Of a stretch of DNA of 64,000 bases, positions 2,399 to 17,806 are shown one piece after another. The notes under the pieces were generated by a model. That model did not search any database. It saw nothing but the letters and a program-made list of their open reading frames with translations, and was not told the DNA's origin. This DNA comes from Candidatus Phyllobacterium onerii. Its GTDB lineage: Bacteria; Pseudomonadota; Alphaproteobacteria; Rhizobiales; Rhizobiaceae. The number at the start of each line of letters is the position of its first letter. The first letter of the stretch is position 1. The DNA lies in assembly GCF_028331445.1 (NCBI RefSeq), contig NZ_JAQMHX010000008.1, positions 62,001 through 126,000 on the forward strand, written 5' to 3'. A program made the position numbers and the translations under genes.

Positions 2399-2644
2399 CT
2401 ACTCGTCAGTATTTCTCATCCTTCTCAACCAGTCCTTTCCGATAGAATGCGATCTGAGGATTGCGAGAGGATCTTCCCAATCGAGGCGCGAACAGATGCG
2501 ATAGATCTCCAATGTCTCCGCATCCATTTCGCCCCGCCGATTGAAGTACATGGCGGCGGCATAACGGGTACGGCCTGACCATTCCTGCCCCAGCGGTGTG
2601 TTGATCAGGGCCCACTGTTCCCGCTCGATGTCGTCCGCAGACAT
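2399..2644 (-). CDS. Small conserved-looking protein of unknown function, coupled to the GcvT-like gene
   Basis: 81 codons, beginning one base after the stop of the GcvT-like gene, so it is probably translated by coupling and is the last gene of that operon. It is rich in charged and aromatic residues, has no signal peptide or membrane segment, and carries no motif I recognise. The position in a four-gene operon (two flavoproteins, a GcvT homologue, then this) suggests an accessory role in the same catabolism. It could be a chance ORF, but the one-base spacing argues for a gene. Confidence 0.6.
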   Translation of the reverse strand: MSADDIEREQWALINTPLGQEWSGRTRYAAAMYFNRRGEMDAETLEIYRICSRLDWEDPLAILRSHSIGKDWLRRMRNTDE

Positions 2645-2645
2645 G

Positions 2646-3881
2646 TCAGAAATCCGCAGGCGGGTTCGCAGTGCGTCGATCGAGCTTGATGAACGGCCTC
2701 GGCACCACCTTGGCCCGCTTCATCAGTTTCTGATAACGCAACTCGCGCATGGCATAGATCTCGACCCACAGATCGCCGGTTATGGTGTCGCCGTAGGGCC
2801 GCTCCAGGCTGGCTAGGGCAATGTTGCGCTTGGCCATCGGCGACCATATCGCCGCGCTGACCAGTCCTATCTCCCGCTTGCCCTGATGGTAGACAATGGC
2901 GTGTTCGGCCGGGATATTCCCCTCGATTTCAAGCCCCACAAGGACATGCCGGAGGCCGCCATTGGCTCGGGCCTGCTGGATGGCACGCCGCCCGTTGAAG
3001 TGGGGCTTTTCCATATCGATCATGAATCCGAGACCAATCTCATCCGGCATTCGCACCCGGTCCGCGCGAATGGCGTGCTCGGCGGTGATGAAATCCGAGT
3101 TGGCAACGATCAACCCTGCTTCGAGCCTCGCCCGGTTGAGCGCGGCATAGCCTATTGCGCGCAAGCCGCGCTGTTCTCCCACTTGCCATAACCTATCCCA
3201 AAGACTGAGCGCCAGTTTCTGGTCTACGAACAGTTCATAGCCAAGATCGCCGGTAAAACCAGTGCGCGAGATCGTGACATTTTCGCCGTCGTGCTCAAAT
3301 TCAGCAAGGTCGAATATTTTCAGCGCGTCGACGCCGTTGAAGCCCGCATCGCGCAGGACCGCAAAGGACGCTGGTCCCTGTAGCGCCAAAGCGGCGATGG
3401 ATTTGGTCTCCTCGATGATATTGACGTCGAACCCGATGCCGCTATCGAGCAGCCAGGGTAAATGCCGTTCCTGGCTGCAAAGGCGAAACCGATCGCTCGT
3501 CAGGCGGAAAAGCGTTCCGTCATCGAGCACGTGGCCTTCATCGTTGCACCAAGCCGTATAGTGAACTCTGCCGGGCTTTAACTTCCTGACATCGCGAAGG
3601 GTAACCCGGTTCAGGAATGCTTCGGCATCCGGTCCTTCAATGCGATATTTCACCATTGGCGAAATATCGAACAGTGCGGCCTGGCTGCGAATGGCGAAAT
3701 ATTCGAGTTCTTCGTCCCAAAGCGAAAGAGGAGCCTTGTAGCCCGCCCAATCGTACCACTCCTCCGTTTGCATCAATGCCTCGATGCGCGGCTGAAACGG
3801 CGAGGCGATGCGAGGCGTACGGAAATGGTCCTGTGAGGCGGCTCTCGCCATCAGCAGCTTTTTTGGGTCGCTGTGCTTCAT
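2646..3881 (-). CDS. GcvT-family aminomethyltransferase-like protein (tetrahydrofolate C1 acceptor)
   Basis: 411 aa. Family members move a methyl or methylene group from a substrate nitrogen or sulfur to tetrahydrofolate; the set includes GcvT, DMSP demethylase and the C-terminal halves of sarcosine and dimethylglycine dehydrogenases. Visible features are the ALFDISPMVKYRIEGPDA segment, a CNDEGHVLDDG segment whose Asp sits at the place of the GcvT catalytic Asp, and TGFTGDLGYELFV. There is no flavin domain, so an external oxidase, perhaps one of the two flavoproteins just upstream, would have to supply the oxidised substrate. The start at 3881 has GGAAAGGA upstream and lies four bases past the preceding stop. 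The methyl donor is unknown. Confidence 0.85.
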   Translation of the reverse strand: MKHSDPKKLLMARAASQDHFRTPRIASPFQPRIEALMQTEEWYDWAGYKAPLSLWDEELEYFAIRSQAALFDISPMVKYRIEGPDAEAFLNRVTLRDVRKLKPGRVHYTAWCNDEGHVLDDGTLFRLTSDRFRLCSQERHLPWLLDSGIGFDVNIIEETKSIAALALQGPASFAVLRDAGFNGVDALKIFDLAEFEHDGENVTISRTGFTGDLGYELFVDQKLALSLWDRLWQVGEQRGLRAIGYAALNRARLEAGLIVANSDFITAEHAIRADRVRMPDEIGLGFMIDMEKPHFNGRRAIQQARANGGLRHVLVGLEIEGNIPAEHAIVYHQGKREIGLVSAAIWSPMAKRNIALASLERPYGDTITGDLWVEIYAMRELRYQKLMKRAKVVPRPFIKLDRRTANPPADF

Positions 3882-3885
3882 GACG

Positions 3886-5451
3886 TTATCCTTTCCTCGC
3901 AATGATGCGCCGCGCCGCGTTCAATCCCGGGACGCCTGATACACCGCCGCCCGGATGTGAGCCGGAACTTGCAAGATAAAGTCCGTCAACAGGCGTGTCA
4001 TAGCCTTCAGCGCCGAAAACGGGACGGGACATCAACATCTGATCAGCCTGCAGTTCTCCGTGGTGCCAATGTCCACCCGGCATGCGGTAACGCTGTTCAA
4101 TATCCAGCGGCGTGAGGAGTTCGGCGTGGAGGATCGATTTGCCGATTCCTGGCGCATGAGCCTCCAGCTGGGCAAGGATTGCCTTGAGGAATTTCGGTTT
4201 GCCTGTGGTCCAGCCCTCTTTCAACGCATAGGGAGCATATTGAACGACGGCGGAGAGACTGCAGGCTCCCTCCGGCGCTAGCGATGGGTCCAGCAAGCTT
4301 GGCAATGTTATCTCCATGACGGGCTTGGGCGAGAATTCACCGTACTTGGAGGGGTTGAATGCGCGCTCCACGTGATTGACGGAAGGCGCAATGACCAGCC
4401 GTCCATTCAGCTCGGGTGTGCGCAAGCCTGAAAATTGCGGGGTCCTGTCCAGAGCCAGATGCAGTTTGGCGGCATCGCCATTGACGCGGATATTATTGAT
4501 CCTTCGGACAAATCCCGTATCGATCTCGCGGGTCCCAACAAGATTGAGAAACGTCGTGCGAGGACTAATTGCGGATACCACCGTTTTCGCCCGGATTTCC
4601 TCACCGCTCTCCAGCACGGCACCGACAGCCCGACCATTCTCGATGATGATCCTGGCGACGGGAACATTCGAGCGGATGGCCACGCCAGCCTGCTCTGCGG
4701 CCAGTTCGATTGCCCTGACCACGGCGCCGGTGCCGCCGACGGGGTGTACCTGTGCGCCGGGCTTGCCGCCAATTTCGCCCGCGAGCCGATAGTAGAGTCC
4801 AAGGAGAGACGTCGGGGAGCGCGGCCCAAGATGACTGCCAAGCGTGGCATCGAAAGCGAGAAGACCTTTCAGCCGGTCATCTTCGATATGCTCATCCAGC
4901 ACGTCCGCGACATTCATGAGCAGCATGCGCAGGAAATCGCGCATGTCCTCCTTGCCGAGCCGGCGCAGAGAGATGCCGGTCATGGCCATGGCCGACGTTT
5001 CCGCAAAGGACATGCCGCTCAGATCGGGGGGTCTGCGTGCGAGCAGGGGTTTGAGGATCCCGGCGTAGCGGAAGAGTTGACTGCGCAGTCCGCTCCATGC
5101 CTCCTGTTCCGGCTTTGACGCGCCGAGGAGACCTTCGCCGTAAGCGCCGATCAGGGTAAGTGGTGCACCTTTTGCTGAAAGCACGGTGGTCGGCATCAAA
5201 GGGGACGTGTCCAGTTTCAAACCGTGCTTCTGCAATTCCAGAGACTTGATTACCTCAGGATGCAACCTGTTGATCAGGTGGGCTACCGAAGACGTCCGGA
5301 AACCTGGTGTGAATTCCTCGGTGCGGGCAGCACCGCCGGTTTCACCATCCGCTTCCAGTACCAGCACTTTTCTGCCGGTTTTCCCAAGAGTAGCGGCAGC
5401 AACGAGGCCATTATGCCCGCCGCCTATGACTATCGCATCAAATGACGTCAT
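3886..5451 (-). CDS. FAD-dependent oxidoreductase, CrtI/PYROXD2-like (second of a tandem pair)
   Basis: 521 aa with an N-terminal Rossmann FAD motif (VIGGGHNGLVAAATLG, about residues 8-23), a GG-doublet region (GETGGAARTEEFTPGF) and a C-terminal FAD contact (DGLYLASSGSHPGGGVSGVPG). This is the phytoene-desaturase-like amine/polyene oxidase fold. Outside carotenoid pathways such proteins act on amines, amino acids or unknown substrates, and no carotenoid genes are present here. The gene overlaps the upstream paralogue by 14 bp and is followed by the GcvT-like gene, so it probably oxidises a catabolic intermediate. Substrate not inferable. Confidence 0.88.
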   Translation of the reverse strand: MTSFDAIVIGGGHNGLVAAATLGKTGRKVLVLEADGETGGAARTEEFTPGFRTSSVAHLINRLHPEVIKSLELQKHGLKLDTSPLMPTTVLSAKGAPLTLIGAYGEGLLGASKPEQEAWSGLRSQLFRYAGILKPLLARRPPDLSGMSFAETSAMAMTGISLRRLGKEDMRDFLRMLLMNVADVLDEHIEDDRLKGLLAFDATLGSHLGPRSPTSLLGLYYRLAGEIGGKPGAQVHPVGGTGAVVRAIELAAEQAGVAIRSNVPVARIIIENGRAVGAVLESGEEIRAKTVVSAISPRTTFLNLVGTREIDTGFVRRINNIRVNGDAAKLHLALDRTPQFSGLRTPELNGRLVIAPSVNHVERAFNPSKYGEFSPKPVMEITLPSLLDPSLAPEGACSLSAVVQYAPYALKEGWTTGKPKFLKAILAQLEAHAPGIGKSILHAELLTPLDIEQRYRMPGGHWHHGELQADQMLMSRPVFGAEGYDTPVDGLYLASSGSHPGGGVSGVPGLNAARRIIARKG

Positions 5452-7057
5452 GGGCCGGACTCATATGTTTCGTGCCACGTGACAGATCACGCAGGATTTC
5501 AGCTGCAGCGTTGCGTCCGGGTGCTCCCATGACGCCGCCGCCTGGATGTGTGGAGGAACCGCACATGTAAAGGCCGCCAACCGGCGAACGGTATTGCGCG
5601 TAGCCGGGGACAGGGCGGTTGAACAGTAATTGATCGAAGGTCAATTCGCCCTGGAAGATATTGCCCTCCGTCAGGCCGACTTCCGCTTCGAGTTCGCGCG
5701 GGGTGCGCACTTCCATATGGATGATGCGATCGCGGAAACCGGGCGAATAGTCGGCGATCTGCGAAATCACCGTCTCGCCGAATGCATCGCGGTCGGCGTC
5801 TGTCCACTCCTTGCCTTCCACCTTGGGTGGGCAATATTGGACGAAGCAGCTCATGAAGTGCTTGCCGGGCGGCGCCATTGTCGGATCGAGCGTCGTCGGG
5901 ATGACCATGTCGAGGAAAGGATCGGCCGACCAGCGCCCGGCCTTCCAGTCATCATATCCGCGTTCCATGCGTTCTACACTGTCGGTGAAGTGCATGTCGC
6001 CGCGATAAACGGGGGAATCCTTTGGAAGTGCCGGAAACTCCGGCATGGAATCGAGCGCGATGTTTACCTTCCCGGACGAGCCGCGCATCTTGAAGTTCCT
6101 GACGCGTCGCAGGAAAATATCGGGAAGTTCCTTCTCCTCGACGAGTTTGAGGAATGTCCTTTTCACATCGGCGTTCGAAACGACCATCTTGCCTTGTATT
6201 TCTTCACCGTCGACGAGCACGACACCCTTGGCGGATCCATTCTTGACGAGAACATGGTCAACTTCGACGCCGGTGCGGATCGTTCCGCCGGAGGCCTCGA
6301 ACGAGGCGGCGAGCGCCTTGGTGACCGCGCCCATGCCGCCGCGGGCGTAGCCCCACGCGCCGACAGATCCGTCAACCTCGCCCATGTAATGATGCAGCAG
6401 CACATAGGCCGTACCCGGCGACATTGGCCCGAGCGCTGTACCGATAATTCCGGATAGCGCGAAATTCGCCTTGATCACGTCTGTCTCAAAATACTCATCG
6501 AGGAAATCCGAAATCGACATCGTCCAAAAACGCAATGTATCGGCCATCTCGGTAGCGCCGAGGCCGGCGAATTTCTTGCCGAGATACATTAGTTCGGAGA
6601 TATCGCGCGGGCGAAAGCTCGTTGGGTCAGCGGCTGTGCGCATGAGTAGCGGCTGGATGAAACGGCACTGCCTCGTCACATCGCGCGCATATCGATCATA
6701 GGCTTCGGCGTCGCGCGGCGAGAATCGGGCGAATTCCCGGCGGTGCGCGTGATGATCGCGATAATTGGCAAGATAGTCGCCGTCCTGGGTGAACACCGCG
6801 CCACCTTCATAGGAGATCACCTGCAAGCCAAAGCGCGGCAGTTCGAGATCGCGCATGATTTCGGGCCGGAACAGCGAACAGACATAGGAGCAGTTCGAAT
6901 AGAGGAACCCTGGGGTGAGAGACCGGCTGGTGGCGGCACCGCCGATCCAATCATTCTTCTCCAGCACGAGCACATCGAGTCCAGCGCGCTGCAAATAGCA
7001 CGCATTGACCAATCCATTATGTCCCGCGCCAATGACGATGGCGTCCCAACTTTTCAT
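5438..7057 (-). CDS. FAD-dependent oxidoreductase, CrtI/PYROXD2-like (first of a tandem pair)
   Basis: 539 aa, first gene of the minus-strand operon 7057-2399. FAD-binding motif VIGAGHNGLVNACYLQ near the N-terminus, WIGGAATSRSLTPGF after it, and a C-terminal YMCGSSTHPGGGVMGAPG. It clearly resembles the next gene but is diverged, so the pair could form a heteromer or catalyse successive oxidations. The start at 7057 was chosen because the protein then begins directly at the FAD fold; the longer frame to 7324 runs through the promoter and operator region and is not credible as coding. An operator-like palindrome lies 68 bases upstream. Confidence 0.88.
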   Translation of the reverse strand: MKSWDAIVIGAGHNGLVNACYLQRAGLDVLVLEKNDWIGGAATSRSLTPGFLYSNCSYVCSLFRPEIMRDLELPRFGLQVISYEGGAVFTQDGDYLANYRDHHAHRREFARFSPRDAEAYDRYARDVTRQCRFIQPLLMRTAADPTSFRPRDISELMYLGKKFAGLGATEMADTLRFWTMSISDFLDEYFETDVIKANFALSGIIGTALGPMSPGTAYVLLHHYMGEVDGSVGAWGYARGGMGAVTKALAASFEASGGTIRTGVEVDHVLVKNGSAKGVVLVDGEEIQGKMVVSNADVKRTFLKLVEEKELPDIFLRRVRNFKMRGSSGKVNIALDSMPEFPALPKDSPVYRGDMHFTDSVERMERGYDDWKAGRWSADPFLDMVIPTTLDPTMAPPGKHFMSCFVQYCPPKVEGKEWTDADRDAFGETVISQIADYSPGFRDRIIHMEVRTPRELEAEVGLTEGNIFQGELTFDQLLFNRPVPGYAQYRSPVGGLYMCGSSTHPGGGVMGAPGRNAAAEILRDLSRGTKHMSPAHDVI

Positions 7058-7124
7058 TCGATACCCGTTCCCACTGTTCTTGCCCCATAATTCACACGAG
7101 AAATAATGGCTTGTCCAGTGCATA

Positions 7125-7140
7125 TTGAATGAATGTTCAA
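7125..7140. promoter_or_regulatory. Operator-like palindrome, site A (TTGAA-N6-TTCAA)
   Basis: TTGAATGAATGTTCAA lies between the divergent flavoprotein operon (start 7057, minus) and the TetR gene (start 7337, plus). The same TTGAAYGWWYRTTCAA pattern recurs at 13354 and 16148, each time in a promoter region of this cluster. Binding by the adjacent TetR protein is inferred. The rest of 7058-7336 shows no other gene. Confidence 0.7.
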
Positions 7141-7336
7141 CAAATATGATTGCGTTCTGGGTGACTTGCGTTATGGTTGAGCGGGAATTTGGACGGTGGA
7201 CCTTGACGGAGACCGAGATCATCCGGACTTGGAAACGATGCAGAGCGAACTTGACAATGACGGCTTTCACTTCACTCATCGGCAGGAAGATGCCGGGCGT
7301 GAGTTGCAGCCCGGCCGGATGCAAAAGAGGTCAGGC

Positions 7337-8008
7337 ATGAAGGTCACACCGATCAAGGAAAAAGACGCGGAGAAGCGGGGCAGAAAGGCTTCGAAGGAGA
7401 CGAGGCAGCTGCAGCTTATCGAGGCGACGATCGATTCGTTGGCCAAGCGCGGCTATTCCGAGACAACCATGGCGGATGTGGCCGATGGTGCCGGTCTTTC
7501 GCGCGGCATCGTCAATTTCCATTTCGAGAGCAAGGAAAAGCTGCTCATCGCCACGCTGCAGTACATGTCCGAGGAATATTCCGTTCATTGGCGCAATGCA
7601 TTGGCAAAGGGAGGTGACGATCCCGCAAGGCAGCTCGCCAGCGTTGTTGCTTCCGATTTTGATCGTGCCATCTGCAACAAGAGAAAGCTTGCCGCCTGGT
7701 GCGCTTTCTGGGGCGAGGCGAAATCCCGGCCGACGTATCAGGCTCTGTGCGGCGCGCGGGACCAAGCCTATCAGAACGTGATCATCGACATTTGCAGAAA
7801 ACTCAAGACCGACGGCGACTATTCGTTCGATGCCAATGCAACAGCACTTGGACTAAGCGCCATGCTTGAAGGTCTGTGGCTGCGTCTCATGATGGGCACT
7901 GAAGATGTGACGCGGGAATCGGCCCATTTTGCCGCCTGCGACTATCTTGCCTCCGTATTTCCAAAACACTTCTCACGGGAAGCCTTGCCTGCAAAGAAAA
8001 CCGCATGA
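7337..8008 (+). CDS. TetR/AcrR-family regulator, BetI-like
   Basis: 223 aa. The N-terminal helix-turn-helix is clear (LIEATIDSLAKRGYSETTMA, then VADGAGLSRGIVNFHFESKEKLL). The C-terminal part (WCAFWGEAKSRPTYQAL) resembles BetI, the choline-responsive repressor, so the ligand may be a quaternary amine or related compound; that step is inference. The start at 7337 follows an AGAGG site; the frame is open further upstream to 7196 but has no good ribosome site there. It is followed after 23 bases by the binding-protein gene and probably cotranscribed. It is the natural candidate to bind the TTGAA-N6-TTCAA sites, one of which lies about 200 bases upstream. Confidence 0.9.
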   Translation: MKVTPIKEKDAEKRGRKASKETRQLQLIEATIDSLAKRGYSETTMADVADGAGLSRGIVNFHFESKEKLLIATLQYMSEEYSVHWRNALAKGGDDPARQLASVVASDFDRAICNKRKLAAWCAFWGEAKSRPTYQALCGARDQAYQNVIIDICRKLKTDGDYSFDANATALGLSAMLEGLWLRLMMGTEDVTRESAHFAACDYLASVFPKHFSREALPAKKTA

Positions 8009-8031
8009 ACGGTTAAAAAAGGGGAATGAGC

Positions 8032-9114
8032 ATGAAGAAATCGGGCCGCCATCTTGGCATCATACTTGGAGCCGCCGCCGCGCTGTCGGCTGCCGTCGCG
8101 ACGATCGCCATCGCCGCCGACAAGGATCTGATTGTTTTTGACTGGGCTGGTTACGAAGAACCGTCGTTCCACCCCGGCTACGTCGCCAAGAATGGTGAGT
8201 CTCCAACATTTGCTTTTTTTGGCGACGAGGATGAAGCCTTCGAGAAGGTGCGTTCCGGCTTCAAGTCGGACCTTGGCCATCCATGCTCGCAGAGCGTGAA
8301 GAAGTGGCGGGAAGCCGGTCTGCTGCAACCATTGGATACGACGAAGATCACCGGCTGGGATGATCTGGCGCCGAACATCATGGCCATGAAGGACCTCGCT
8401 ACCACAGCCGATGGCAAGGCGTGGTTCATGCCCTGGGATTGGGGAAATACGTCGCTGACGTATAATACCGACAAGGTCGACGCGAAGGATGTGCAATCGC
8501 TCAAGGCCTTTGCCGATCCGAAGTTCAAGGATCGCGTGTCTATCGGCGACAACGTCGATGATGCCTATGCCTTGGCCAGCCTCGCGATCGGGTTGAAAGA
8601 CTGGACCCAGATGACTGACGACCAATTCAAGCAGGCGTCGGATTTTCTTCGTCAGGTCCACAAGAACGTGCGGCTTTACTGGACTGATACGACCGAAATC
8701 GTGCAGGCGATGGGTGGCGGGGAAGTCGATCTGGCCTGGGCATGGAACGATGCAGCGACACAACTCGCGCTCGCGGGTACGCCGGCCGCCAGAAAGCCAG
8801 ACACGGACGAGGGCAATTCAACCTGGGTTTGCGGTTATGTACGCTTCAAGGACGCGCCCGGATCTGAAGCAAAGGCCTATGATTTTCTCAATGCGGTCAA
8901 TGATCCGGCAATCGCGACCTATATGGTGAACGATTGGGGATATGGCATGGCGAACGCCAAAGGCATGGCATCGGTCGATCCAAAACTCTTGGCCGACAAG
9001 GGTTATTCTAACAACGACAAATCCGCCGAGAATACCTTGTTTCAGTCGCCGCTGCCCAATGAGTTGAAGGCGAAGATGATCGCTGAATTCGAGAAGATCA
9101 AGGCGGGGTATTGA
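8032..9114 (+). CDS. Periplasmic substrate-binding protein, PotD-like (polyamine-type ABC uptake)
   Basis: 360 aa. Residues 1-28 form a signal peptide. The mature part resembles the spermidine/putrescine binding family (DLIVFDWAGYEEPSFHPGY at the start; PWDWGNTSLTYNTDKV in the middle). The second ATG (8032) sits at ideal distance from the AGGGGA site; an ATG six bases upstream is less well placed. The cognate permeases and ATPase are encoded convergently on the other strand (13276-10385), an unusual split that makes the shared operator sites important. The substrate may be a diamine or methylated amine and cannot be read from sequence. Confidence 0.9.
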   Translation: MKKSGRHLGIILGAAAALSAAVATIAIAADKDLIVFDWAGYEEPSFHPGYVAKNGESPTFAFFGDEDEAFEKVRSGFKSDLGHPCSQSVKKWREAGLLQPLDTTKITGWDDLAPNIMAMKDLATTADGKAWFMPWDWGNTSLTYNTDKVDAKDVQSLKAFADPKFKDRVSIGDNVDDAYALASLAIGLKDWTQMTDDQFKQASDFLRQVHKNVRLYWTDTTEIVQAMGGGEVDLAWAWNDAATQLALAGTPAARKPDTDEGNSTWVCGYVRFKDAPGSEAKAYDFLNAVNDPAIATYMVNDWGYGMANAKGMASVDPKLLADKGYSNNDKSAENTLFQSPLPNELKAKMIAEFEKIKAGY

Positions 9115-10421
9115 GCGCAAGCACTCCAACGCGCGTTGTCGTCGTCGGCGCAGGCTTTACCGGCCTGTCGGCGGCGACCGAACTGCAACGGGCCGGAATC
9201 GACTTCGTTCTCCTTGAGGCGCGGGACAGGGTGGGTGGCCGTGTCGAGGCAAAAATGAATAACCTCGATGATCTCTACGATACGGGAGGTCAGTTCATCT
9301 GCGATGACATGCCCGAGATCATGGCCTTGGCGCGGACCCACGGCAAGACATTAGTCGAAACGCCGGTTCGGGGTGACAGCGTTGCGCAGCCGCCGCCGCA
9401 CGGCAGGCATGATGCGGAAAAAGTTTCCGCAGGATCGATGGCTCTGCGTCGCCGCCTGCGGAAGCTAGATCCGACCGATCCAGCGCTGTCTGGTTTGACC
9501 GTCCGCGCATGGGTCAACAGCCAACAGGCCGACCTCGCCGCAAAAATGCGATTTCTGTCGTTGATCGAAGGTCTATGGTGCGTGCCGGCCGGGCTTGTTC
9601 CATTGTGGTTTATTGTCGATAACGACCGGCGTATCACAAACAAGGTCTCCGAACTGCAGTACTTCGTTAGGGAAACGATGCATTCGCTGGCTGCCGACAT
9701 GGCGCAGTCGCTGGAAAAATCGCTGCTATTGAGTGAGCCCGTCGACAGCGTCGAGACGAATGCATCCGGTGTGATGGTACGCACTGCCCGCGAAGCTTAT
9801 TCGGTCAACGAGGTCATCATTGCTGTACCCCCTGTAATGGCGCGCAAGATCATCTTTCATCCCTCCTTGCCGGAGGCAACAAACAACGCGCTTGCCTCCT
9901 GGAAGAGCGGCACGGTCGTCAAATTGCTCATACGATATTCCGAACCATTCTGGCGGAGGGCTGGCCTCAGCGGCAGTGTCATCTGGGTCGATCCACGCGG
10001 GCTCTATGCGTGCGATGCGAGCCATGATGACCAGCACCCCGCGCTCGTGGTGTTCGTCGGCGGGCCCATCGCTGTCGAATGGTCGAGCCACGGTGAGGAG
10101 GCGCTCAAGCAGGAGGTGGTGTGGAGACTGGTGAGGGCGCTTGGGCCAGAGGCTGGCGCGCCGCTGGACATCCTGCTTCGCAATTGGATCAACGACACGT
10201 GGAGCGGCGGTGGCTATTCGGATATTGTCGAGGTCATGAACGCGACTGGAGCCGAAAATACGCTGCGCCGCGGTCTACCCGGCATCACCTTTGCCTCGTC
10301 CGAACTCTCGCCATCGTTTCCTGGCTATATCGAAGGAGCGATCATTGCTGGCCGCTTGGCGGCCCAGCCAATCATCGAGCGATTTCAGTCGGCGAGTGCC
10401 ACCAACGCGTCGGGGTCATAG
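9111..10421 (+). CDS. Flavin-containing monoamine oxidase family protein
   Basis: 436 aa. N-terminal FAD motif VVVVGAGFTGLSAATELQ, LLEARDRVGGRVEA, and a C-terminal flavin loop SFPGYIEGAIIAGRLAAQ, all typical of amine oxidases that turn an amine and O2 into an imine/aldehyde, ammonia and H2O2. Translation probably starts at a TTG that overlaps the stop of the binding-protein gene (TTGA, 9111-9114), so the two are coupled. The 3' end overlaps the convergent ATPase gene by 37 bases. No signal peptide, so cytoplasmic. A role in oxidising the imported amine fits the context. Confidence 0.87.
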   Translation: MSASTPTRVVVVGAGFTGLSAATELQRAGIDFVLLEARDRVGGRVEAKMNNLDDLYDTGGQFICDDMPEIMALARTHGKTLVETPVRGDSVAQPPPHGRHDAEKVSAGSMALRRRLRKLDPTDPALSGLTVRAWVNSQQADLAAKMRFLSLIEGLWCVPAGLVPLWFIVDNDRRITNKVSELQYFVRETMHSLAADMAQSLEKSLLLSEPVDSVETNASGVMVRTAREAYSVNEVIIAVPPVMARKIIFHPSLPEATNNALASWKSGTVVKLLIRYSEPFWRRAGLSGSVIWVDPRGLYACDASHDDQHPALVVFVGGPIAVEWSSHGEEALKQEVVWRLVRALGPEAGAPLDILLRNWINDTWSGGGYSDIVEVMNATGAENTLRRGLPGITFASSELSPSFPGYIEGAIIAGRLAAQPIIERFQSASATNASGS

Positions 10422-11458
10422 GCGAGGCGGATCGGGGCGCCGACAGGAATGTCGTCAGCGCCAAAATTATTGGTTTCCGTCACCGAGAGCGGTTTGTCAA
10501 AACCCGGTATCTCGATCACCAGGTGGGTTATCTCGCCAAAGTAGTGCCGATCGACGACCTTGCCGGCCACCTCGTATTTGTCTGTCGTATCATCCCACAG
10601 GACGCGCAGGCGTTCCGGTCTGATCCCCAACGTCGCACCCTTACCATTCCTCACAAATGCCGCTGGCTTGTCGGTTTTTACCCGCCCGAAGCCCGGCGTA
10701 TCCAATATCATCGAGGCGCCGTTCTCCTCGACGATCTCGGCTTTTACGAAGTTCATGCCGCCGAGAAAGTCAGCCACCTGACAGTTGACCGGCCGCTGGT
10801 AGATCTCTTTCGGCGACGCGACCTGCGCGATTTTCCCGCCGAACATGACCGCGATGCGATCCGACATCGCCAGCGCCTCATATTGATCATGCGTGACGAG
10901 AATGAATGTGATGCCGACGGCCTGCTGCAGCCGCCGCAATTCGACCTGCATCTGTTCGCGCAACTTCTTGTCGAGGGCTGAAAGTGGCTCGTCGAGGAGG
11001 AGCACCTTTGGGCGCATGACGAGCGCGCGGGCGAGCGCAACACGCTGACGCTGTCCACCGGACAGTTCGGTCGCGCCGCGCTTCCCAAGCCCCGTCAGTG
11101 ATACTTGCGACAGGGCTTCTTCGACACGGCGCTTCTCTTCGTCTGCTCCGAGGCGCAGCCGTTTCAGCCCGTAACACACATTCTGTTCGACATTGAGATG
11201 CGGAAAGATGGCGTAGCTCTGAAACACCATATTGGTCGGACGCCGATTGGCGGGAATACCATCCATGGGCTGGCCATCGACCGAAATCGACCCGCTTGTC
11301 GGCGTGTCGAAACCGGCGATCATACGGAGCAGCGTGGTCTTGCCGCATCCGGAAGGGCCGAGAAGCGAGAAAAACTCGCCCTCGCGGATCGTAAGTGACG
11401 TTTCATCGAGCGCCTTGAAGGCCCCGTAGCTGCGCGTCACGCGCGAAATCTCGATCAT
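10385..11458 (-). CDS. ABC transporter ATP-binding protein, PotA-like
   Basis: 357 aa. Walker A GPSGCGKTT at about residues 34-42, signature LSGGQRQRV, Walker B VLLLDEPLSALD and the switch His in LVTHDQYEA; the last about 110 residues are the TOBE-type regulatory domain usual in PotA/FbpC ATPases. The start at 11458 gives the canonical MIEISRV beginning seven bases after the upstream permease stop; a TTG at 11473 overlapping that stop is an alternative. It powers the PotB/PotC-like permeases just upstream. Its 3' end overlaps the amine-oxidase gene by 37 bases. Confidence 0.92.
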   Translation of the reverse strand: MIEISRVTRSYGAFKALDETSLTIREGEFFSLLGPSGCGKTTLLRMIAGFDTPTSGSISVDGQPMDGIPANRRPTNMVFQSYAIFPHLNVEQNVCYGLKRLRLGADEEKRRVEEALSQVSLTGLGKRGATELSGGQRQRVALARALVMRPKVLLLDEPLSALDKKLREQMQVELRRLQQAVGITFILVTHDQYEALAMSDRIAVMFGGKIAQVASPKEIYQRPVNCQVADFLGGMNFVKAEIVEENGASMILDTPGFGRVKTDKPAAFVRNGKGATLGIRPERLRVLWDDTTDKYEVAGKVVDRHYFGEITHLVIEIPGFDKPLSVTETNNFGADDIPVGAPIRLAYDPDALVALAD

Positions 11459-11465
11459 AGAGCGT

Positions 11466-12287
11466 TCAGGCAATCATGCCTCCCATATTCTGGGTGCGAT
11501 TGCTTGCGCGGCGTCGCACGATTTCTGCGATGGTCAAAAGGATAATCGAACCAGCGAGGAGCAGCGTACCGAGCGCGAGGACGCCCGGCAGCTTGGCGGC
11601 AAATCGCAACTGACCCCAGATGTAGACAGGCAGAGTTGCTTCGGTACCGGTTAGGAAGAATGCCATGATGAATTCATCGAGCGAGATGGTGAAGGAGACA
11701 AGCAGGCTCGAAATGATTGCAGGCGAAACCATGGGCAGCGTCACACGCCGGAACGTTCCGAAGGCGCTCTCTCCCAGATCCGAGGAAGCTTCTTCAAGGC
11801 TCCTGTCAAACCCTTCGAAGCCCGAAGTGAGGACGCTCAGGGAATAGGGAATGCAGATCAGTACATGGCCGAATACGACCGTGATCAAAGACAGACTCAA
11901 CCCGAGTTGCAGCATGACGAGCAGCATCGAGACTGCGACGATAATTTCCGGCAGGACCAGTGGCGCCATAAGAAGGCCATTGATGGTGCGCCTGCCTGGG
12001 AAGCGGTAGCGTGTAATGGCGCGCGCGGCGCATATGCCGAATATGGTGCTCAACAGGGACGCAGACACGCCGACGAGCAAGCTGTTCCATGCCGCATCGG
12101 TGAGTGCCGGGGTGCGGGTCAGGTCGCCATACCATTTGAAGGTGAAACCGCTCAGGGGAAACTTCGGTGTCGCCGACGTGTTGACCGAAAAGATCGGCAG
12201 GAAAATCACCGGCAAATAGAGAAAAATGACGTAAAGGAAGGCGTAGGTTTTTAGCCAGCTTGGCGTAAAGTTCCGCAAGGTCTTCAT
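11466..12287 (-). CDS. ABC transporter permease, PotC-like
   Basis: 273-aa inner-membrane permease with about six hydrophobic segments and the EAA loop (LEEASSDLGESAFGTFRRVTLP) that contacts the ATPase. The first two segments are YVIFLYLPVIFLPIFSV and the LLVGVSASLLSTIFG region. The start at 12287 overlaps the stop of the upstream permease as ATGA, a usual arrangement in this transporter family; a longer frame upstream merely reads through the other permease gene. It works with the 12284-13276 permease and the 10385-11458 ATPase. Confidence 0.92.
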   Translation of the reverse strand: MKTLRNFTPSWLKTYAFLYVIFLYLPVIFLPIFSVNTSATPKFPLSGFTFKWYGDLTRTPALTDAAWNSLLVGVSASLLSTIFGICAARAITRYRFPGRRTINGLLMAPLVLPEIIVAVSMLLVMLQLGLSLSLITVVFGHVLICIPYSLSVLTSGFEGFDRSLEEASSDLGESAFGTFRRVTLPMVSPAIISSLLVSFTISLDEFIMAFFLTGTEATLPVYIWGQLRFAAKLPGVLALGTLLLAGSIILLTIAEIVRRRASNRTQNMGGMIA

Positions 12288-13276
12288 CGGATTCGCCTCG
12301 CTGCCATGCGGATGACCAAAACGACGGAAGCGGCCATCGCCGTCACCACCGCCATGGTCGTCACCGAGAGCGCTGCGCCAAGTGGCCAGTTTGCGCCTTT
12401 GCCGAACTGGGCCTGGATGGCATTGGCAATCATCACACCGTCTTTGCCGCCGACCAGACGCGGCGTCACGAAATCGCCGACAGTCGGGATCATCACGATA
12501 AGCGTTGCGGATATGATCCCAGGCGCCGACAGCGGTAAGGTAATGCGCAGGAACCGCCGCAATGGCCCATCGCCAAGATCGGTCGCAGCCTCGACAAGCG
12601 AGCGGTCGATTTTCTCCAGCGAGACGAAGATCGGTAGCACCGCGAATGTTGCCCACGCGTGGGTCAACGTGATCACGACTGCACTAGTGTTGTACAGGAA
12701 TGCATCCGACGGACCGTTGGTGATCCCCAGGCCCATCAACGTTGCATTGAGAACGCCATTATAGCCAAGGATGACTTTCCAGGACATCACCCGCAGCAGA
12801 TAGCTCGTCCAGAATGGAATGGTGATCAGGAACAGCCAGAGGCCCTTGTGCTTGCCACCATGGAACGAGATGAAGAAAGCGATCGGGTAGGCCAGCACGA
12901 CTGTAAAGAAGCTGACGAGGAGGGAAATCCACAGCGAGCGCATCAGCAGATCGCGATAAATAGGGTCGGTCAGAGCGATCCGATAGTTTTCGAGCGTGAA
13001 TGTCCGGTCGATCGTCAGGTAGTTTTGCGTCCAGAAACTGTTGGCGATGACCAGAACGATTGGAATGACCAGGAAGATCACCGCGTAGATAAACGTCGGA
13101 CTTATCAGCCCGAGACCACGCGCAGCTTCTGATTGCAGAACAGGATTTCTTTGTTTTCGCACGACAGGTAGTGCGGCGATCCCTTCCGCCGGTGCCGTCA
13201 TTCGAACGGACCACGCGCGTGATATGCCATCAGGTACCGGAGCATATTGTTCCCATTCATTCGATTCACGCGGCAC
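12284..13276 (-). CDS. ABC transporter permease, PotB-like
   Basis: Up to 330 aa with a hydrophilic N-terminal stretch of about 55 residues, then six membrane segments beginning TFIYAVIFLVIPIVLVIANS; EAA loop VEAATDLGDGPLRRFLRITLPLS. The annotated start is a GTG at 13276 with AAGGGA close upstream; an ATG at 13201 (MTAPAEG) would give 305 aa, closer to the family's usual length, and cannot be excluded. It is the first gene of the minus-strand transporter operon, divergent from the aminotransferase gene, with operator site B between them. Confidence 0.9.
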   Translation of the reverse strand: MPRESNEWEQYAPVPDGISRAWSVRMTAPAEGIAALPVVRKQRNPVLQSEAARGLGLISPTFIYAVIFLVIPIVLVIANSFWTQNYLTIDRTFTLENYRIALTDPIYRDLLMRSLWISLLVSFFTVVLAYPIAFFISFHGGKHKGLWLFLITIPFWTSYLLRVMSWKVILGYNGVLNATLMGLGITNGPSDAFLYNTSAVVITLTHAWATFAVLPIFVSLEKIDRSLVEAATDLGDGPLRRFLRITLPLSAPGIISATLIVMIPTVGDFVTPRLVGGKDGVMIANAIQAQFGKGANWPLGAALSVTTMAVVTAMAASVVLVIRMAARRIR

Positions 13277-13346
13277 GTTCCCTTTGGTGCCATCTTTCTT
13301 GCATCATGCGCCTATCTGTGGATTGAAATCAAGTGCTATTTCTGAC

Positions 13347-13372
13347 ATATTGATTGAACGAACATTCAATAT
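13347..13372. promoter_or_regulatory. Operator-like palindrome, site B
   Basis: An imperfect 26-bp palindrome (10 of 13 positions symmetric) contains the core TTGAACGAACATTCAA at 13354-13369, matching sites A and C. It lies between the divergent transporter operon (start 13276) and the aminotransferase gene (start 13450), so one bound repressor could cover both promoters. Confidence 0.72.
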
Positions 13373-13449
13373 AATGGGAGAAATCTCATTAATTTCCGAT
13401 AATTGAACATGATTTTCAACCGGTATACCGGCAATCGAGTGAGGGAATA

Positions 13450-14871
13450 ATGGCGGCGGTGAAACAGATACGGGAAGCCGGGGTGGCAGCGGCGCGAGCA
13501 AATCACGAGACGATCGATCTGGCCAAGCGACATCTGGTTCAGCCATGGCCCTGTGCCGGAGAGATTGGCGCCGAGGCCAGGTCGCTTATTAGCGGCGGTG
13601 AGGGCATCTACATCACCGACAGCGAGGGCAAGCGGCTTATCGATGGGCCTGCCGGCATGTGGTGTGTCAATGTGGGACACCGCTGCGAGGAGCTGGCGCG
13701 CGTCATGTACGACCAGGCCATGCAGCTTTCGTACAACACGCCCTGGTATACGATGAACGAGCCTTCTGCGGTGCTCGCGGAGCGCATCGCTGCTTATGCG
13801 CCCGGCGACCTCAATCACGTCTTCTTCACCACTGGCGGCTCAACAGCCGTTGAGAGCGCACTTCGTTTCATGCAGTTCTTCAACAATGCGCGGGGCCGGT
13901 CCGAGAAAAAGCTCATCCTTTCACGCGGCGGCGCTTATCATGGTTCTACCTATCTCTCAGCCTCGTTGAACGGGCGTCCGCGGGATCGCGACTGGATGGA
14001 TGGCGCCGATGACCTTGTCGTCAAGTTGACATCTCCGGATGCATTTCGCCGTCCCGAAGGCATGAGCATAGCCGCATTCTCGGACATGCTGGTCGCCGAG
14101 TTAGAGGAGACGGTTCGCCGCGTTGGTGCTGACAAGATTGGCGCTTTCATTGGCGAGCCGGTCCAGGCCTCAGGCGGCGTCATTCTACCGCCCGAAAACT
14201 ATCTGCCGCGCATCCGCAAGATATGCCGGGACAATGAAATCCTGTTTATCGCTGACGAAGTGGTTACGGCCTTTGGCAGGCTCGGGCACGTCTTCGCTTC
14301 CCAGGATGTATTCGATATCGATCCGGATATCATCACCTTTGCAAAGGGTGTCACCTCGGGCTATTTTCCGCTCGGCGGTATGGTAGTCTCCGAGCGTCTT
14401 CTTGAAGAACTGCGCCGTTCAAATCACCCGACAGCGATGTATGCGCATGGGCTGACCTACACCAGCCATCCCGTCGGCTGCGCCGTGGCGCTCACCAATC
14501 TCGACCTGCTCGAGGATGGCATCCTCGCGCACACGCAGTCCGTAGCGCCGTATTTTCAGCAGCAATTGAAGACGCTTGAGGAATTGCCCCTGGTTGGTGA
14601 GGTTCGCGGGATAGGCCTGATGGCCTGCGTCGAGTGCGTTGCCGACCGCGAGAGCAAGAACCCGCTGCAGCTCGATACGAATGTGGGAATGCGTATCGAT
14701 ACACATTGTCATGAACTCGGCCTATTGGTGCGGCCGCTCATCAACATGTGTGTCATGTCTCCGCCGCTGGTTATTACCCGCGAACAGATCGACGATATGG
14801 TGGGTATCCTCCGCGAAGGCATTTCGCGCACGATGGACGATCTACGGCGTGAGGGCGTCTGGCAAGGATAA
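13450..14871 (+). CDS. Class III (omega) aminotransferase
   Basis: 473-aa cytoplasmic PLP enzyme. The cofactor lysine is K299 in ITFAKGVTSGYFPLGG; other signatures are FFTTGGSTAVESALRF, GGAYHGSTYLSASL and the Asp of FIADEVVTAFGRLGHVF. Relatives move a terminal amino group from polyamines, beta-alanine, taurine or similar compounds to pyruvate or 2-oxoglutarate. The start follows GAGGGAATA. It is alone in its transcript, bounded by operator site B and a terminator at 14888. The context suggests it removes nitrogen from the compound taken up by the PotABCD-like system; the donor is unknown. Confidence 0.92.
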   Translation: MAAVKQIREAGVAAARANHETIDLAKRHLVQPWPCAGEIGAEARSLISGGEGIYITDSEGKRLIDGPAGMWCVNVGHRCEELARVMYDQAMQLSYNTPWYTMNEPSAVLAERIAAYAPGDLNHVFFTTGGSTAVESALRFMQFFNNARGRSEKKLILSRGGAYHGSTYLSASLNGRPRDRDWMDGADDLVVKLTSPDAFRRPEGMSIAAFSDMLVAELEETVRRVGADKIGAFIGEPVQASGGVILPPENYLPRIRKICRDNEILFIADEVVTAFGRLGHVFASQDVFDIDPDIITFAKGVTSGYFPLGGMVVSERLLEELRRSNHPTAMYAHGLTYTSHPVGCAVALTNLDLLEDGILAHTQSVAPYFQQQLKTLEELPLVGEVRGIGLMACVECVADRESKNPLQLDTNVGMRIDTHCHELGLLVRPLINMCVMSPPLVITREQIDDMVGILREGISRTMDDLRREGVWQG

Positions 14872-14887
14872 TCCGGCTAACGACAAA

Positions 14888-14916
14888 TAGCCCGGCGACT
14901 GTGCCGGGTTATTTTA
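14888..14916. terminator. Bidirectional terminator between aminotransferase and Rieske genes
   Basis: Stem CCCGGC (14891-14896) with GCCGGG (14903-14908), six-base loop, followed on the plus strand by TTATTTTATT. It sits between two convergent genes. Confidence 0.7.
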
Positions 14917-14933
14917 TTGCGAGTTGTTAGCAA

Positions 14934-16130
14934 TCAGCTCTGTGCGGCCAGCTGCGCATTGAGCAATGGCACTTCGGCCTCTGCCGGCGCCTTCTCGACC
15001 TTCAGTATGGGCAGGACATTGCGCAGGTGATCGTGATGCGAGCGGACACCGTATTCGAGGTCCGAGAGATAGAATCCCGAGAACGATTTCGACAGCATCG
15101 ATTCATTTGACCATTTCGTCAGCTGAACATCTTCCGAGCTCGTCTCGCGATCGATGCGCGAGGCGAGGTAGCGGGCAGCCCGCTGCTGTCGAGTTTCATC
15201 CTTGTTGCGGAATGCAGCGCCGCGCAACAGGGTCTCGCCCGTCGAAAGCGGAAACTCCTGGTAGTACTGCGCGCCTTCAGGCGTAACCGAGATCACAGAA
15301 TTCGGGAAAATCCCGTAATAGATCCACGCGTTGCGAAGGTTGTCGGGCAGATGCGTCGCCTCCGGTGCCAGATTGATATAGTTGCGCACACTCCAGCGCC
15401 GTCCCGCATGCGGATTATAGCTGGCGAAAGATCGCGACACGCCATTGATGAATGGCTCGTCGTAATAGGTCGAACCGTAAAGATCCTGGAGCGCAGGATG
15501 GGCCATAGCCACATGGTAGCCTTCATTGTCGACATCGCGCACCGACTTCCAGTTGACGGGCGATATCTGCGTCCAGAAGCCGGCAGGCACCATATCCGCG
15601 ATCTTGTAGTTCGCAATTTCCGCTTCGAACGGCTTCATCAATGTCGCAACCGATGGCTGGGCGCTCTTGAGGAAACGGATGAAGATAAAACCCATCCAGA
15701 TTTCGAGTTCGAGTGGCAACAGACCGAATTCGTTTTTGTCCATCTCCGGGAAAGAGCGCGGACGCGACGCGCCTCGCAGGGTGCCGTCGAGGTTATAAAC
15801 CCAGCCATGGAAGGGACAGACCAGCGCGTTGTTGCATGTTCCCTTGTTGTCGGTGACGACGCGGGATCCGCGGTGACGGCAGATATTGTGAAAGGCACGG
15901 ATTTCGCCGTCCTTGCCACGTACGATCAGGGCCCGCTCACCCACGACATCAAGCGCGACGTAATCACCGACATTGGGCACATCGCAGACATGCCCGGCTA
16001 TCTGCCAATGGCTTCGAAAGACGTATTCCTTCTCGAGCTCGAGCAGGGCCGGACTGCTATAGCTCCAGGCCGGCAATCCCCGGCGGTCCCAGTTGTTCGG
16101 AATCGTCAAATCGCGCTGATTAACCTGCAT
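14934..16130 (-). CDS. Rieske non-heme iron oxygenase, alpha subunit
   Basis: 398 aa. The [2Fe-2S] ligands are C84-x-H86 (NICRHRGS) and C105-x2-H108 (CPFHGW). The mononuclear iron site is the DNEGYHVAMAHPAL segment with H206 and H211, preceded by the bridging acidic residue. The overall shape resembles the alpha subunits of carnitine, glycine-betaine and stachydrine oxygenases, which demethylate or cleave quaternary amines; assignment to that subgroup is tentative. No ferredoxin or reductase gene is nearby, so electrons must come from a component encoded elsewhere. The start at 16130 was chosen because the reading frame above it runs into operator site C. Confidence 0.9.
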   Translation of the reverse strand: MQVNQRDLTIPNNWDRRGLPAWSYSSPALLELEKEYVFRSHWQIAGHVCDVPNVGDYVALDVVGERALIVRGKDGEIRAFHNICRHRGSRVVTDNKGTCNNALVCPFHGWVYNLDGTLRGASRPRSFPEMDKNEFGLLPLELEIWMGFIFIRFLKSAQPSVATLMKPFEAEIANYKIADMVPAGFWTQISPVNWKSVRDVDNEGYHVAMAHPALQDLYGSTYYDEPFINGVSRSFASYNPHAGRRWSVRNYINLAPEATHLPDNLRNAWIYYGIFPNSVISVTPEGAQYYQEFPLSTGETLLRGAAFRNKDETRQQRAARYLASRIDRETSSEDVQLTKWSNESMLSKSFSGFYLSDLEYGVRSHHDHLRNVLPILKVEKAPAEAEVPLLNAQLAAQS

Positions 16131-16145
16131 AAATTCGCTCTTACT

Positions 16146-16165
16146 TATTGAATGTTCATTCAATA
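16146..16165. promoter_or_regulatory. Operator-like palindrome, site C
   Basis: A perfect palindrome of 9-bp half-sites, TATTGAATG and CATTCAATA around TT, located 16-35 bases upstream of the Rieske oxygenase start. Its core TTGAATGTTCATTCAA (16148-16163) is the third match to the pattern at sites A and B. Confidence 0.75.
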
Positions 16166-16246: not shown

Positions 16247-17383
16247 TCATACTATGTATCGGAGACGGCGGGTGTTGGACTCCGCACTTCGTTGCAGCGC
16301 CGTACCGCATTCACTTTTCTGCTGAAGGCCGAGCATTGTCAAAGTGACATCGATTTCATCTCGGAGCATGGCAAGTAGATCCTCGGCTCCCGCCTCACCA
16401 TTTGTGGCGAGCCCCCCATAGTGGTAGCCGACCAATCATTACTGACTTGGCGCCGTTGGCGATATACTTCAGGACGTCGCTTCCGCGCTTCACGCCACTA
16501 GAACGTCAAGATCGTGGCCAATGGCATCCGCGATCCCCGGAAGAACGTCGATCGGCGCGGGTGCAATATCAAGATTGCGGGCACCGTGAGCGGACACCAC
16601 GATCCCGTCGACTCCAGCAGCCTTTGCTAGATGGGCATCATCAACGCCAAGAACACCCTTGATGACAAGTTTACCTTTCCACCAGCGTCGAAACTGATGG
16701 ATGTCGTCCCAGTTTAGAAGGTTCTCCAGGCGGACGGCTTCGGCGATGGAACGTCGGGTGACTGCGCTACGGAATTCCTGCGGATAATGGCCATAGGTGG
16801 GCATACCAGTCGCCAGGAGATAGCGAAACAGGACTCCACATAGCCAACGTGGATGGAGCGCCACGTCCAGGCCAAGCCGCTGTGAATACTTTATCGGGAT
16901 CGAAAAACCGTTCCGATGGTTGTATTCCCGCTTTGGAGTTGCGGGGGTATCGGCTGTCACGACCAGTGTCGTCACACCTGCATTTTCCACACGTTCGAGA
17001 AGCGCGCGCGACAGGTTTCTGTCCTTCCACATGTAAAGTTGAAACCAAAGGCTGGCTCCTGGAGCGCCGGCACGGATCTCTTCTATGGTCGTAATGGATT
17101 GTGTGGAGATGCAAACCGGAATGCCCATCCGCGCAGCCGCACGGGCAAGTTTAATCTCGCCGTTGTGCGAGACCAGTCCCGCCAGTCCCGCCAGTGCCGT
17201 CGGCGCCACAACCAACGGCATCGCTGTCGTTTCACCGAGAATTTCGGTTTTCAGTTCGCGCTCCGGGTGGCCAGTCAGCACCCTCGGAATGAGGTCGATA
17301 GCGTCGAGACTGTTTCGAAGGTTTCGCAGGGCATTCTCATCTTCGGTTCCACGATCGATGTATTCGAAGAGGGCTTTGGGTGG
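16247..17383 (-). pseudogene. Decayed FMN-dependent alpha-hydroxy-acid oxidase/dehydrogenase (LldD family)
   Basis: Homology runs through three reading frames. The first, from about 17383 to the stop at 16490, reads [16 protein letters not shown] through [28 protein letters not shown] and LVIKGVLGVDDA to DLDVLVA. The second continues as SGVKRGSDVLKYIANGAK and MIGR. The third, 16435 down to 16247, gives YHYGGLATNGEAGAEDLL and DEIDVTLTMLG. At least two small indels, near 16490 and 16435, therefore break the gene, and its first about 20 residues are missing at the junction with the ABC fragment. Minus-strand sequence above 17383 is open but unlike the family. The intact protein would oxidise L-lactate, mandelate or a similar 2-hydroxy acid. 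Confidence 0.85.
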
Positions 17384-17695: not shown

Positions 17696-17806
17696 ATGGG
17701 GCGTACGGATATCGGCCAAAGCACCGATGCCCTGCCTCTAGTCAATGTAGTGGCCCGACTAGTATGCTCAGAGCCTACCGAGAGATTCCTTGCGCAGGAG
17801 GTTGCA

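Follow-up and report, generated by a model that had tools for sequence, protein, structure and literature searches.

A candidate BetI/TetR-type regulon for N-methylated alkylamine catabolism in Candidatus Phyllobacterium onerii

We analysed a gene cluster at 2399-16130 of a 64-kb window of the Candidatus Phyllobacterium onerii genome (the window is the whole stretch considered, i.e. positions 62001-126000 on contig C8, in a genome of 6.0 Mb; coordinates below are those of the window). The cluster carries genes for a PotABCD-like transporter, a Rieske oxygenase, a stand-alone GcvT-like protein, two CrtI-like flavoproteins (CrtI1 and CrtI2), a class III aminotransferase and an amine oxidase. We consider it probable that it represents one BetI/TetR-type regulon for the catabolism of N-methylated alkylamines, most likely from a trimethylammonium compound to the primary amine. 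Every gene named in the initial annotation of this DNA, which was made from the letters alone, has an intact frame; the title of that annotation left out the gene of an 81-amino-acid (81-aa) protein ending at 2399, and the unit further comprises a TetR regulator and a palindrome shared by the promoters. The features of the cluster are the following.

2399-2644, minus strand: conserved 81-aa protein, no known family (tblastn in relatives; all-helical model with a predicted local distance difference test score, pLDDT, of 80 and a predicted template-modelling score, pTM, of 0.69)
2646-3902, minus strand: GcvT-like folate-binding protein, stand-alone (PF01571, 194 bits; NF053776, 253 vs cut-off 1100; PDB 9q5a)
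3886-5451, minus strand: CrtI1, flavin adenine dinucleotide (FAD) protein of the CrtI/amine-oxidase superfamily (PF01593; CrtO model, 230 bits vs cut-off 1000)
5438-7057, minus strand: CrtI2, FAD protein of the CrtI/amine-oxidase superfamily (CrtO model, 309 vs cut-off 1000; AlphaFold2 model, pLDDT 83.9)
7124-7141, no strand: palindrome 1, putative operator in the crtI2/tetR gap (2 mismatches to the 18-mer, 1 to the 16-mer)
7337-8008, plus strand: TetR/BetI-like regulator, start inferred (PF00440, PF13977; BetI model TIGR03384, 120.2 vs 201.3; NF001978, 118.0 vs 118)
8026-9114, plus strand: PotD-like periplasmic binding protein with an altered ligand pocket (PotD model, 82 vs cut-off 582; alignments)
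9111-10421, plus strand: monoamine/putrescine-oxidase-like flavoprotein, probably accessory (PF01593, 192 bits; PDB 8p84, 2yg7)
10385-11473, minus strand: PotA-like ATPase of an ATP-binding cassette (ABC) transporter (TIGR01187, 356.2 bits vs cut-off 355.6; PF00005)
11466-12287, minus strand: PotC-like permease (PF00528; frame verified)
12284-13201 (or start 13276), minus strand: PotB-like permease (NF007044, 206 bits vs 348; PF00528)
13353-13370, no strand: palindrome 2, putative operator in the potB/aminotransferase gap (0 mismatches)
13450-14871, plus strand: class III aminotransferase of the PRK07036 type, whose cut-off it clears (NF005447, 698.9 bits vs cut-off 618; PDB 3i5t)
14934-16130, minus strand: Rieske oxygenase alpha subunit, DVDNEGYH type (PF00355, PF00848; best PDB match carnitine monooxygenase)
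16147-16164, no strand: palindrome 3, putative operator preceding the Rieske gene (0 mismatches)

When the intergenic regions were compared, the palindrome TTGAAYGWWCRTTCAA was found to be common to all three promoter regions. We searched the window with the 18-mer ATTGAAYGWWCRTTCAAT, allowing at most 3 mismatches, and obtained 3 matches, at 7124, 13353 and 16147, all in promoters; shuffles gave a mean of 0.28 matches, and none of 100 reached 3. As the pattern was drawn from its own three sites, it is the genome and the relatives that test it independently. In the 6.0-Mb genome the 16-mer core, with at most 1 mismatch, occurs in 5 places, 3 of which are in this cluster. Of the other two, one falls within a 528-aa frame and one comes just behind a 121-aa frame; after inspection we rejected both as regulon members, since neither looks like one. 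As relatives we considered the best 80 of 128, with loci fetched by GcvT alone; within this set the nearest named relatives by GcvT are Phyllobacterium (96-97%). In 1.62 Mb of these loci there were 56 palindrome matches, 49 between tetR and crtI2, 7 upstream of potB and 0 elsewhere, at least one match being present in 50 of the 80 loci. The Rieske gene is beyond the reach of all 80 loci.

Outside the set of 80 (here and below, L and G numbers are our labels for loci and genomes, respectively), the palindrome is at all three promoters in L115 (Rhizobium sp. SL42, at most 1 mismatch) and L207 (Ensifer adhaerens, at most 2 mismatches), at two promoters in L205 (Shinella), and, with at most 2 mismatches, beside the tetR, aminotransferase, CrtI2 or Rieske gene in L176, L182, L186, L194, L234, L236 and L237. 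The gene set looks like one regulon because the palindrome stands at three promoters, which are three of its five places in the genome, and its binder is likely to be the BetI-like TetR protein. For the Rieske gene of the window the most likely start is 16130 and not 16310, the start of the longest frame, because palindrome 3 is inside the extension.

The genes are also inherited together. Among the 80 relatives we found CrtI1 in 79, CrtI2 in 78, TetR in 79, PotD in 78, PotA in 71 and the amine oxidase in 69; for CrtI2 and PotA, cross-matches of 32-34% were set aside, and with them the counts would be 79 and 73, respectively. CrtI2 is the most conserved enzyme (87-99% outside the two nearest relatives), and the two loci without it are L070, where a contig end cuts it, and L021. 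A Rieske ortholog with 70-96% identity was present in all of the 30 genomes searched for it, which are 30 of the 80 relatives. We then considered 199 genomes of the same family, with ortholog thresholds of E 1e-230 for CrtI2 and E 1e-130 for Rieske: 45 had the CrtI2 ortholog, 51 the Rieske ortholog and 45 both, hence at these thresholds none of the 45 had CrtI2 without Rieske (Fisher p ~1.7e-38, uncorrected for kinship). Counted per genus, CrtI2 was in 29 and Rieske in 33 of 109, again uncorrected for kinship. The two genes were on one contig in 39 of the 45 genomes, at most 25 kb apart in 36 of these 39 and 34, 38 and 343 kb apart in the remaining three. The set grouped by the initial annotation is thus not scattered in relatives, and it held together within the family. 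With the same thresholds neither ortholog was detected in the congeneric genomes G832 and G914, which suggests gain or loss of the entire unit.

The 81-aa protein belongs to the unit. By tblastn its gene is in all of the 80 related loci and also in L115, L194-L197, L205 and L207, and in Fuscovulum ytuae (L206) its sequence is the N-terminal part of a cupin protein. It had no match in Pfam, PHROGs or NCBIfam, and a fold search against the PDB gave nothing better than E 5.

Within this unit we distinguished two modules. Module A is the DVDNEGYH Rieske gene with the class III aminotransferase and TetR genes, usually with a Pot-type transporter; module B is the trio CrtI2-CrtI1-GcvT. In a set of 23 loci of the class, selected by CrtI2 out of 26 ortholog-level hits, CrtI1 adjoined CrtI2 in 23 of 23, and GcvT was adjacent in all 22 that could be assessed, a contig end cutting the remaining locus. 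By contrast, CrtI2-like paralogs with 35-41% identity had no GcvT match in any of the 10 stretches around them. The trio is frequently accompanied by a class III aminotransferase, of either the type of the window or a GntE/HemL-like type; the latter was recognised by hidden Markov model (HMM), below cut-offs, in L192 and L206, and only by eye or by a weak match in L182, L186, L189 and L203. In Fuscovulum ytuae the order aminotransferase-CrtI2-CrtI1-GcvT-Rieske-Rieske-transporter forms one co-directional run, with an aminotransferase type and a transporter that differ from those of the window.

Around the CrtI2-like paralogs of L157-L175, of which about 1.5 kb per side was examined, a Rieske gene is next door in 5 of 19 loci. 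In other families of the class we observed TetR-Rieske-CrtI2-like units (L215, L218, L219, L228) and a Rieske-CrtI2-like pair alone (L225), none of which has a Pot or GcvT gene as a neighbour. In L215 and L228, both from another family of the class, a relative of basic amino acid/polyamine antiporters, below the model cut-off, adjoins the Rieske/CrtI2-like pair, a hint that the compound may be a cationic amino acid or a diamine. A paralogous cluster of the same-family genome G443 (L231:4228-11386) comprises a related class III aminotransferase, a PuuC-like aldehyde dehydrogenase, an adenosine monophosphate (AMP)-ligase, a CrtI2-like gene and an amidohydrolase.

The Rieske protein keeps its Cys/His set and the His/His/Asp of the mononuclear iron (C84, H86, C105, H108, H206, H211 and D334), and the bridging Glu (E205 in CntA) is E203, invariant in 7/7 orthologs. 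By PDB search its closest solved structures are carnitine monooxygenase and the 3vca enzyme, which we take to be Stc2; its GbcA score is 144.7 vs the NCBIfam cut-off of 670. Rieske proteins of group V have either an aromatic residue (clade Va) or Asn (clade Vb) at CntA position 203 (PMC7948474), and some members have a Cys-X-X-Cys beside the iron (PMC10952381). Rieske proteins with both the Tyr and the Cys pair are in or near the CrtI2 clusters of L116, L181, L191, L192 and L206, and also beside CrtI2-like genes in L172 and L157/L227; of three second Rieske proteins scanned, those of L181 and L191 match GbcA over their length (308 and 325 bits, cut-off 670), and that of L206 only in the N-terminal half (151 bits vs 670). 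The genome has three other Rieske genes, two with the Vb motif (ENNRECYHC) and one with the Va motif, which from their motifs may cover the usual betaine routes.

The GcvT-like protein carries the GCV_T folate-binding domain, as DmmD/Tdm-type proteins do, and it is closest to the C-terminal folate half of the trimethylamine N-oxide (TMAO) demethylase Tdm. For DmmD, a comparable stand-alone protein, the authors of PMC5520151 infer the capture of formaldehyde on tetrahydrofolate (THF). The enzyme types point to N-demethylation with transfer of the one-carbon (C1) unit to folate, as the initial annotation had proposed. We favour this theme because of the closeness of GcvT to Tdm and the formaldehyde capture proposed for DmmD, because Tyr/Cys-pair Rieske proteins occur in or near CrtI2 clusters, and because in G880 the Rieske and aminotransferase genes are near MttB and dimethylglycine-dehydrogenase-like genes. 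Precisely, in G880 (L235:3351-19688) module A is near an MttB-family methyltransferase (PF06253, 646 bits), two dimethylglycine-dehydrogenase-like proteins (one of them checked by Pfam), a 690-aa flavoprotein and a second Rieske gene. The flavoproteins of 680-690 aa beside L116, L205 and L235 gave only old yellow enzyme (OYE) matches below cut-off.

In the route that we propose, the PotD-like protein and PotABC would import the cation, and the Rieske oxygenase, with a reductase from elsewhere, would hydroxylate one of the carbons on the quaternary nitrogen, N-methyl (or N-CH2), to give formaldehyde and a tertiary amine. The two CrtI-like flavoproteins would act on the tertiary N-methylamine first and on the secondary one next, oxidising them to the iminium/imine, the GcvT-like protein would move the C1 unit to THF as 5,10-methylene-THF, and the class III aminotransferase (or the amine oxidase as an alternative) would turn the freed primary amine into an aldehyde. 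A TetR/BetI-like repressor at the shared palindrome would provide the joint induction of all the units. The analysis shows the gene content, the co-inheritance, the common palindrome, the conservation of the metal-site residues and the changed pocket of the binding protein; from these we infer the reactions, their order, the binding of the repressor and the substrate. For the last we propose N-epsilon-trimethyllysine or trimethylated diamines as the leading candidates, and omega-trimethylamino acids (gamma-butyrobetaine, delta-valerobetaine, beta-alanine betaine) as the next ones.

Several observations weigh against this reading, and we gather them here and in the next paragraph. CntAB is the closest solved structure to the Rieske protein, which keeps its bridging Glu, but Tyr203 and Cys206/Cys209 of CntA correspond to Asp201, Gly204 and Val207, invariant in 7/7 orthologs: Asp201 is neither aromatic (Va) nor Asn (Vb), and the Cys-X-X-Cys pair is replaced. 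We do not claim membership of group V for it, related chemistry being plausible, and the protein may hydroxylate something else than a quaternary amine. There is no reductase in the cluster; PF00970 was found in 5 places elsewhere in the genome, two of them beside other Rieske genes, and the place on the same contig (~21 kb off) was rejected as a linked reductase, as its 667-aa frame is MOSC/ferredoxin-reductase-like (by eye) and has no palindrome nearby. A methyltransferase dependent on S-adenosylmethionine recurs beside the cluster (L178:3044-3823, L233:6386-7183, L236:12732-13559 and L206:26012-26785; recognised by HMM in L178 and L233, by annotation in L206 and by eye in L236), and those of L178, L233 and L236 start alike, with an LWGEGYLSPGG-like sequence (L236 by eye); such an enzyme is unexpected in a demethylation route. 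With at most 2 mismatches, no palindrome was found in L116, L177, L178, L179, L181, L183, L191, L192, L206, L224, L233 and L235, and the sole match in L193 is between CrtI2 and GcvT, not in a promoter. The 81-aa gene was not found in L116, L176-L193, L224, L235 and L238, and the distant trio clusters, L206 excepted, are without it. In L021 (Mesorhizobium camelthorni, 8639-11188), the sole one of the 80 relatives without the full trio besides the contig-cut L070, CrtI2 is missing and the CrtI1 match begins only at residue 82. Finally, the amine oxidase, which the initial annotation had counted in the set, is the least conserved enzyme among the 80 relatives, with 51-62% once the two nearest are set aside. 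It is probably accessory, because it is poorly conserved and no ortholog was detected in L115, L116, L205-L207 and L176-L193; in L234 another amine-oxidase-family gene follows the Rieske gene.

To the same side belongs the fact that modules A and B also occur apart, so that the single gene set first annotated looks like one regulon and at the same time resolves into two modules. Six of the 51 family genomes with the Rieske ortholog (G783, G824, G854, G856, G880 and G948) have no CrtI2; the aminotransferase of the window's type is alongside in 5 of the 6, L237 having only a 30% match, and a Pot-type transporter in 4 of the 6, not in L235, the stretch of L238 (G856) being only 5.2 kb long. In G176 aminotransferase, PotD, Rieske, PotB, PotC and PotA genes are together, and the trio genes are not in the 19-kb stretch. 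Conversely, the trio has no Rieske match within ~9 kb in L185-L190, L193 and L203, and likewise in the shorter stretch of L182. A single linear pathway is not forced by the data. These loci, together with the trio-less L233, L234, L236 and L237, in which the 81-aa gene is near module A, would be explained by two pathways under one regulator, where module A takes up one cation and breaks it down by Rieske oxidation (hydroxylation or C-N cleavage) and transamination, and module B is a co-induced N-demethylation salvage for mono-/dimethylamines or N-methyl amino acids. We consider this arrangement rather unlikely, although it is the best of the alternatives: CrtI2 was never found without Rieske in the 199 genomes of the family, the palindrome is shared, and in Fuscovulum ytuae both modules are in one co-directional run.

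Returning to the single demethylation regulon, its putative substrate is constrained by the binding protein. In 15/15 orthologs Glu36, Asp168 and Asp257 of PotD are replaced by Gly42, Asn176 and Cys269, respectively, and Glu171 by Asp179; the positions of Trp34, Tyr37, Trp229, Trp255, Tyr293 and Gln327 are kept. In PotD itself the three spermidine amines are bound by Glu36, Glu171 and Asp257 (PMC4096761). Two of these three amine-binding carboxylates are therefore lost in the PotD-like protein. The kept aromatics and the lost carboxylates may suit a ligand with fewer protonated amines, e.g. a quaternary ammonium compound. A quaternary or methylated amine is still the best guess, and an ordinary polyamine is an unlikely ligand because two of the three PotD carboxylates are lost.

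The latter point bears on the possibility that the PotABCD importer, the oxidase and the aminotransferase serve ordinary putrescine/spermidine catabolism and that the Rieske, CrtI-like and GcvT proteins are unrelated to it. The transporter architecture and the family of the binding protein are indeed those of PotABCD/PotFGHI polyamine uptake, PotA is barely above the cut-off of the polyamine subfamily, the amine oxidase is close to putrescine and monoamine oxidases, and PuuC-like aldehyde dehydrogenases are near the aminotransferase in L176 and L231 (557 and 607 bits, cut-off 850). Against these stand the replaced carboxylates, the PotD model score of the binding protein, far from its cut-off, and the palindrome and co-inheritance that tie the enzymes together, and we regard such a role as very improbable.

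For the two flavoproteins, labelled 'NAD(P)/FAD-dependent oxidoreductase' in the database records inspected, the AlphaFold2 model of CrtI2 folds as a CrtI/amine-oxidase-type flavoprotein; the leading PDB fold matches are 4rep and 4dgk, which are carotenoid enzymes, and 3ka7, an uncharacterised oxidoreductase; oxidases of nicotine, cyclohexylamine and putrescine come next. Sequence and fold are compatible with amine oxidation by CrtI2 and leave it unproven, the argument being that of gene context. That the pair makes or degrades a carotenoid or another polyene lipid as a chance neighbour, as CrtO being the best NCBIfam model, the top folds and the one PF00494 gene of the genome might suggest, we rejected as hardly credible, because both CrtO scores are far below the cut-off, the PF00494 gene is on another contig and the pair is constantly beside GcvT (22/22 assessable loci), amine oxidases moreover sharing the fold.

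A bolder suggestion, which we think unlikely, is that CrtI1 and CrtI2 are new flavin-dependent N-methylamine demethylases passing the C1 unit to the stand-alone GcvT, after a third amine Rieske type (DVDNEGYH), e.g. on trimethyl-, dimethyl- and methyl-lysine, which would also explain the function of the human orphan flavoprotein PYROXD2. PYROXD2, presumably a member of the same CrtI-like superfamily, may be a relative of CrtI1 and CrtI2. Variants of PYROXD2 associate with the levels of N6-methyllysine and dimethyllysine (PMC9730628, PMC8879569), and another study links the locus to a hydroxyacylcarnitine (PMC9320943).

Among the known systems, StcD has a role in stachydrine demethylation, and in the stachydrine (Stc2/StcD) and glycine betaine (GbcAB) routes, as in the one proposed here, a Rieske protein with the bridging Glu would remove the first methyl; the Rieske protein of the window differs from Stc2/GbcAB in having no Cys pair, Asp in place of Asn and a GbcA score of 145 vs 670, and its cluster is without a reductase. 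The Tmm-Tdm-DmmABCD system resembles the cluster in oxidative N-demethylation and in a GcvT-type folate protein for the C1 unit (PMC5520151), whereas the cluster is without Tmm, Tdm and DmmABC genes, in place of which it encodes a GcvT that stands alone, the two CrtI-like flavoproteins and the Rieske protein. The PotABCD/PotFGHI systems differ in the amine-binding carboxylates, replaced in the PotD-like protein. We also considered homarine degradation and rejected it, as the literature search gave nothing matching this gene set; a bacterial trimethyllysine pathway with these genes was not found in the open-access literature, and we recognised no open-access paper as describing the combined gene set, subscription journals being largely uncovered.

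Two observations concern the borders of the cluster. Beside the Rieske gene, at 16490-17719, there is by eye a shortened frame resembling alpha-hydroxy-acid oxidase/lactate dehydrogenase, whose N-terminal part overlaps, in antisense orientation, the end of the gene for an amino-acid ABC ATPase; at this edge of the cluster it resembles the remnant of a gene. In Rhizobium sp. SL42 (L115:6239-10751) genes for a desaturase, a MocE-family ferredoxin, a flavoprotein and an inositol dehydrogenase, which we take to be rhizopine-like, are just upstream of the cluster.

A solved pathway would add a route by which bacteria of soil, rhizosphere and sea break down methylated nitrogen compounds. A function would follow for the CrtI-like flavoproteins, for a Rieske type that belongs to neither of the two amine clades described and for the 81-aa protein that has no family. 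The shared palindrome offers a handle on the inducer, and so probably on the substrate, by means of the TetR protein and a reporter.

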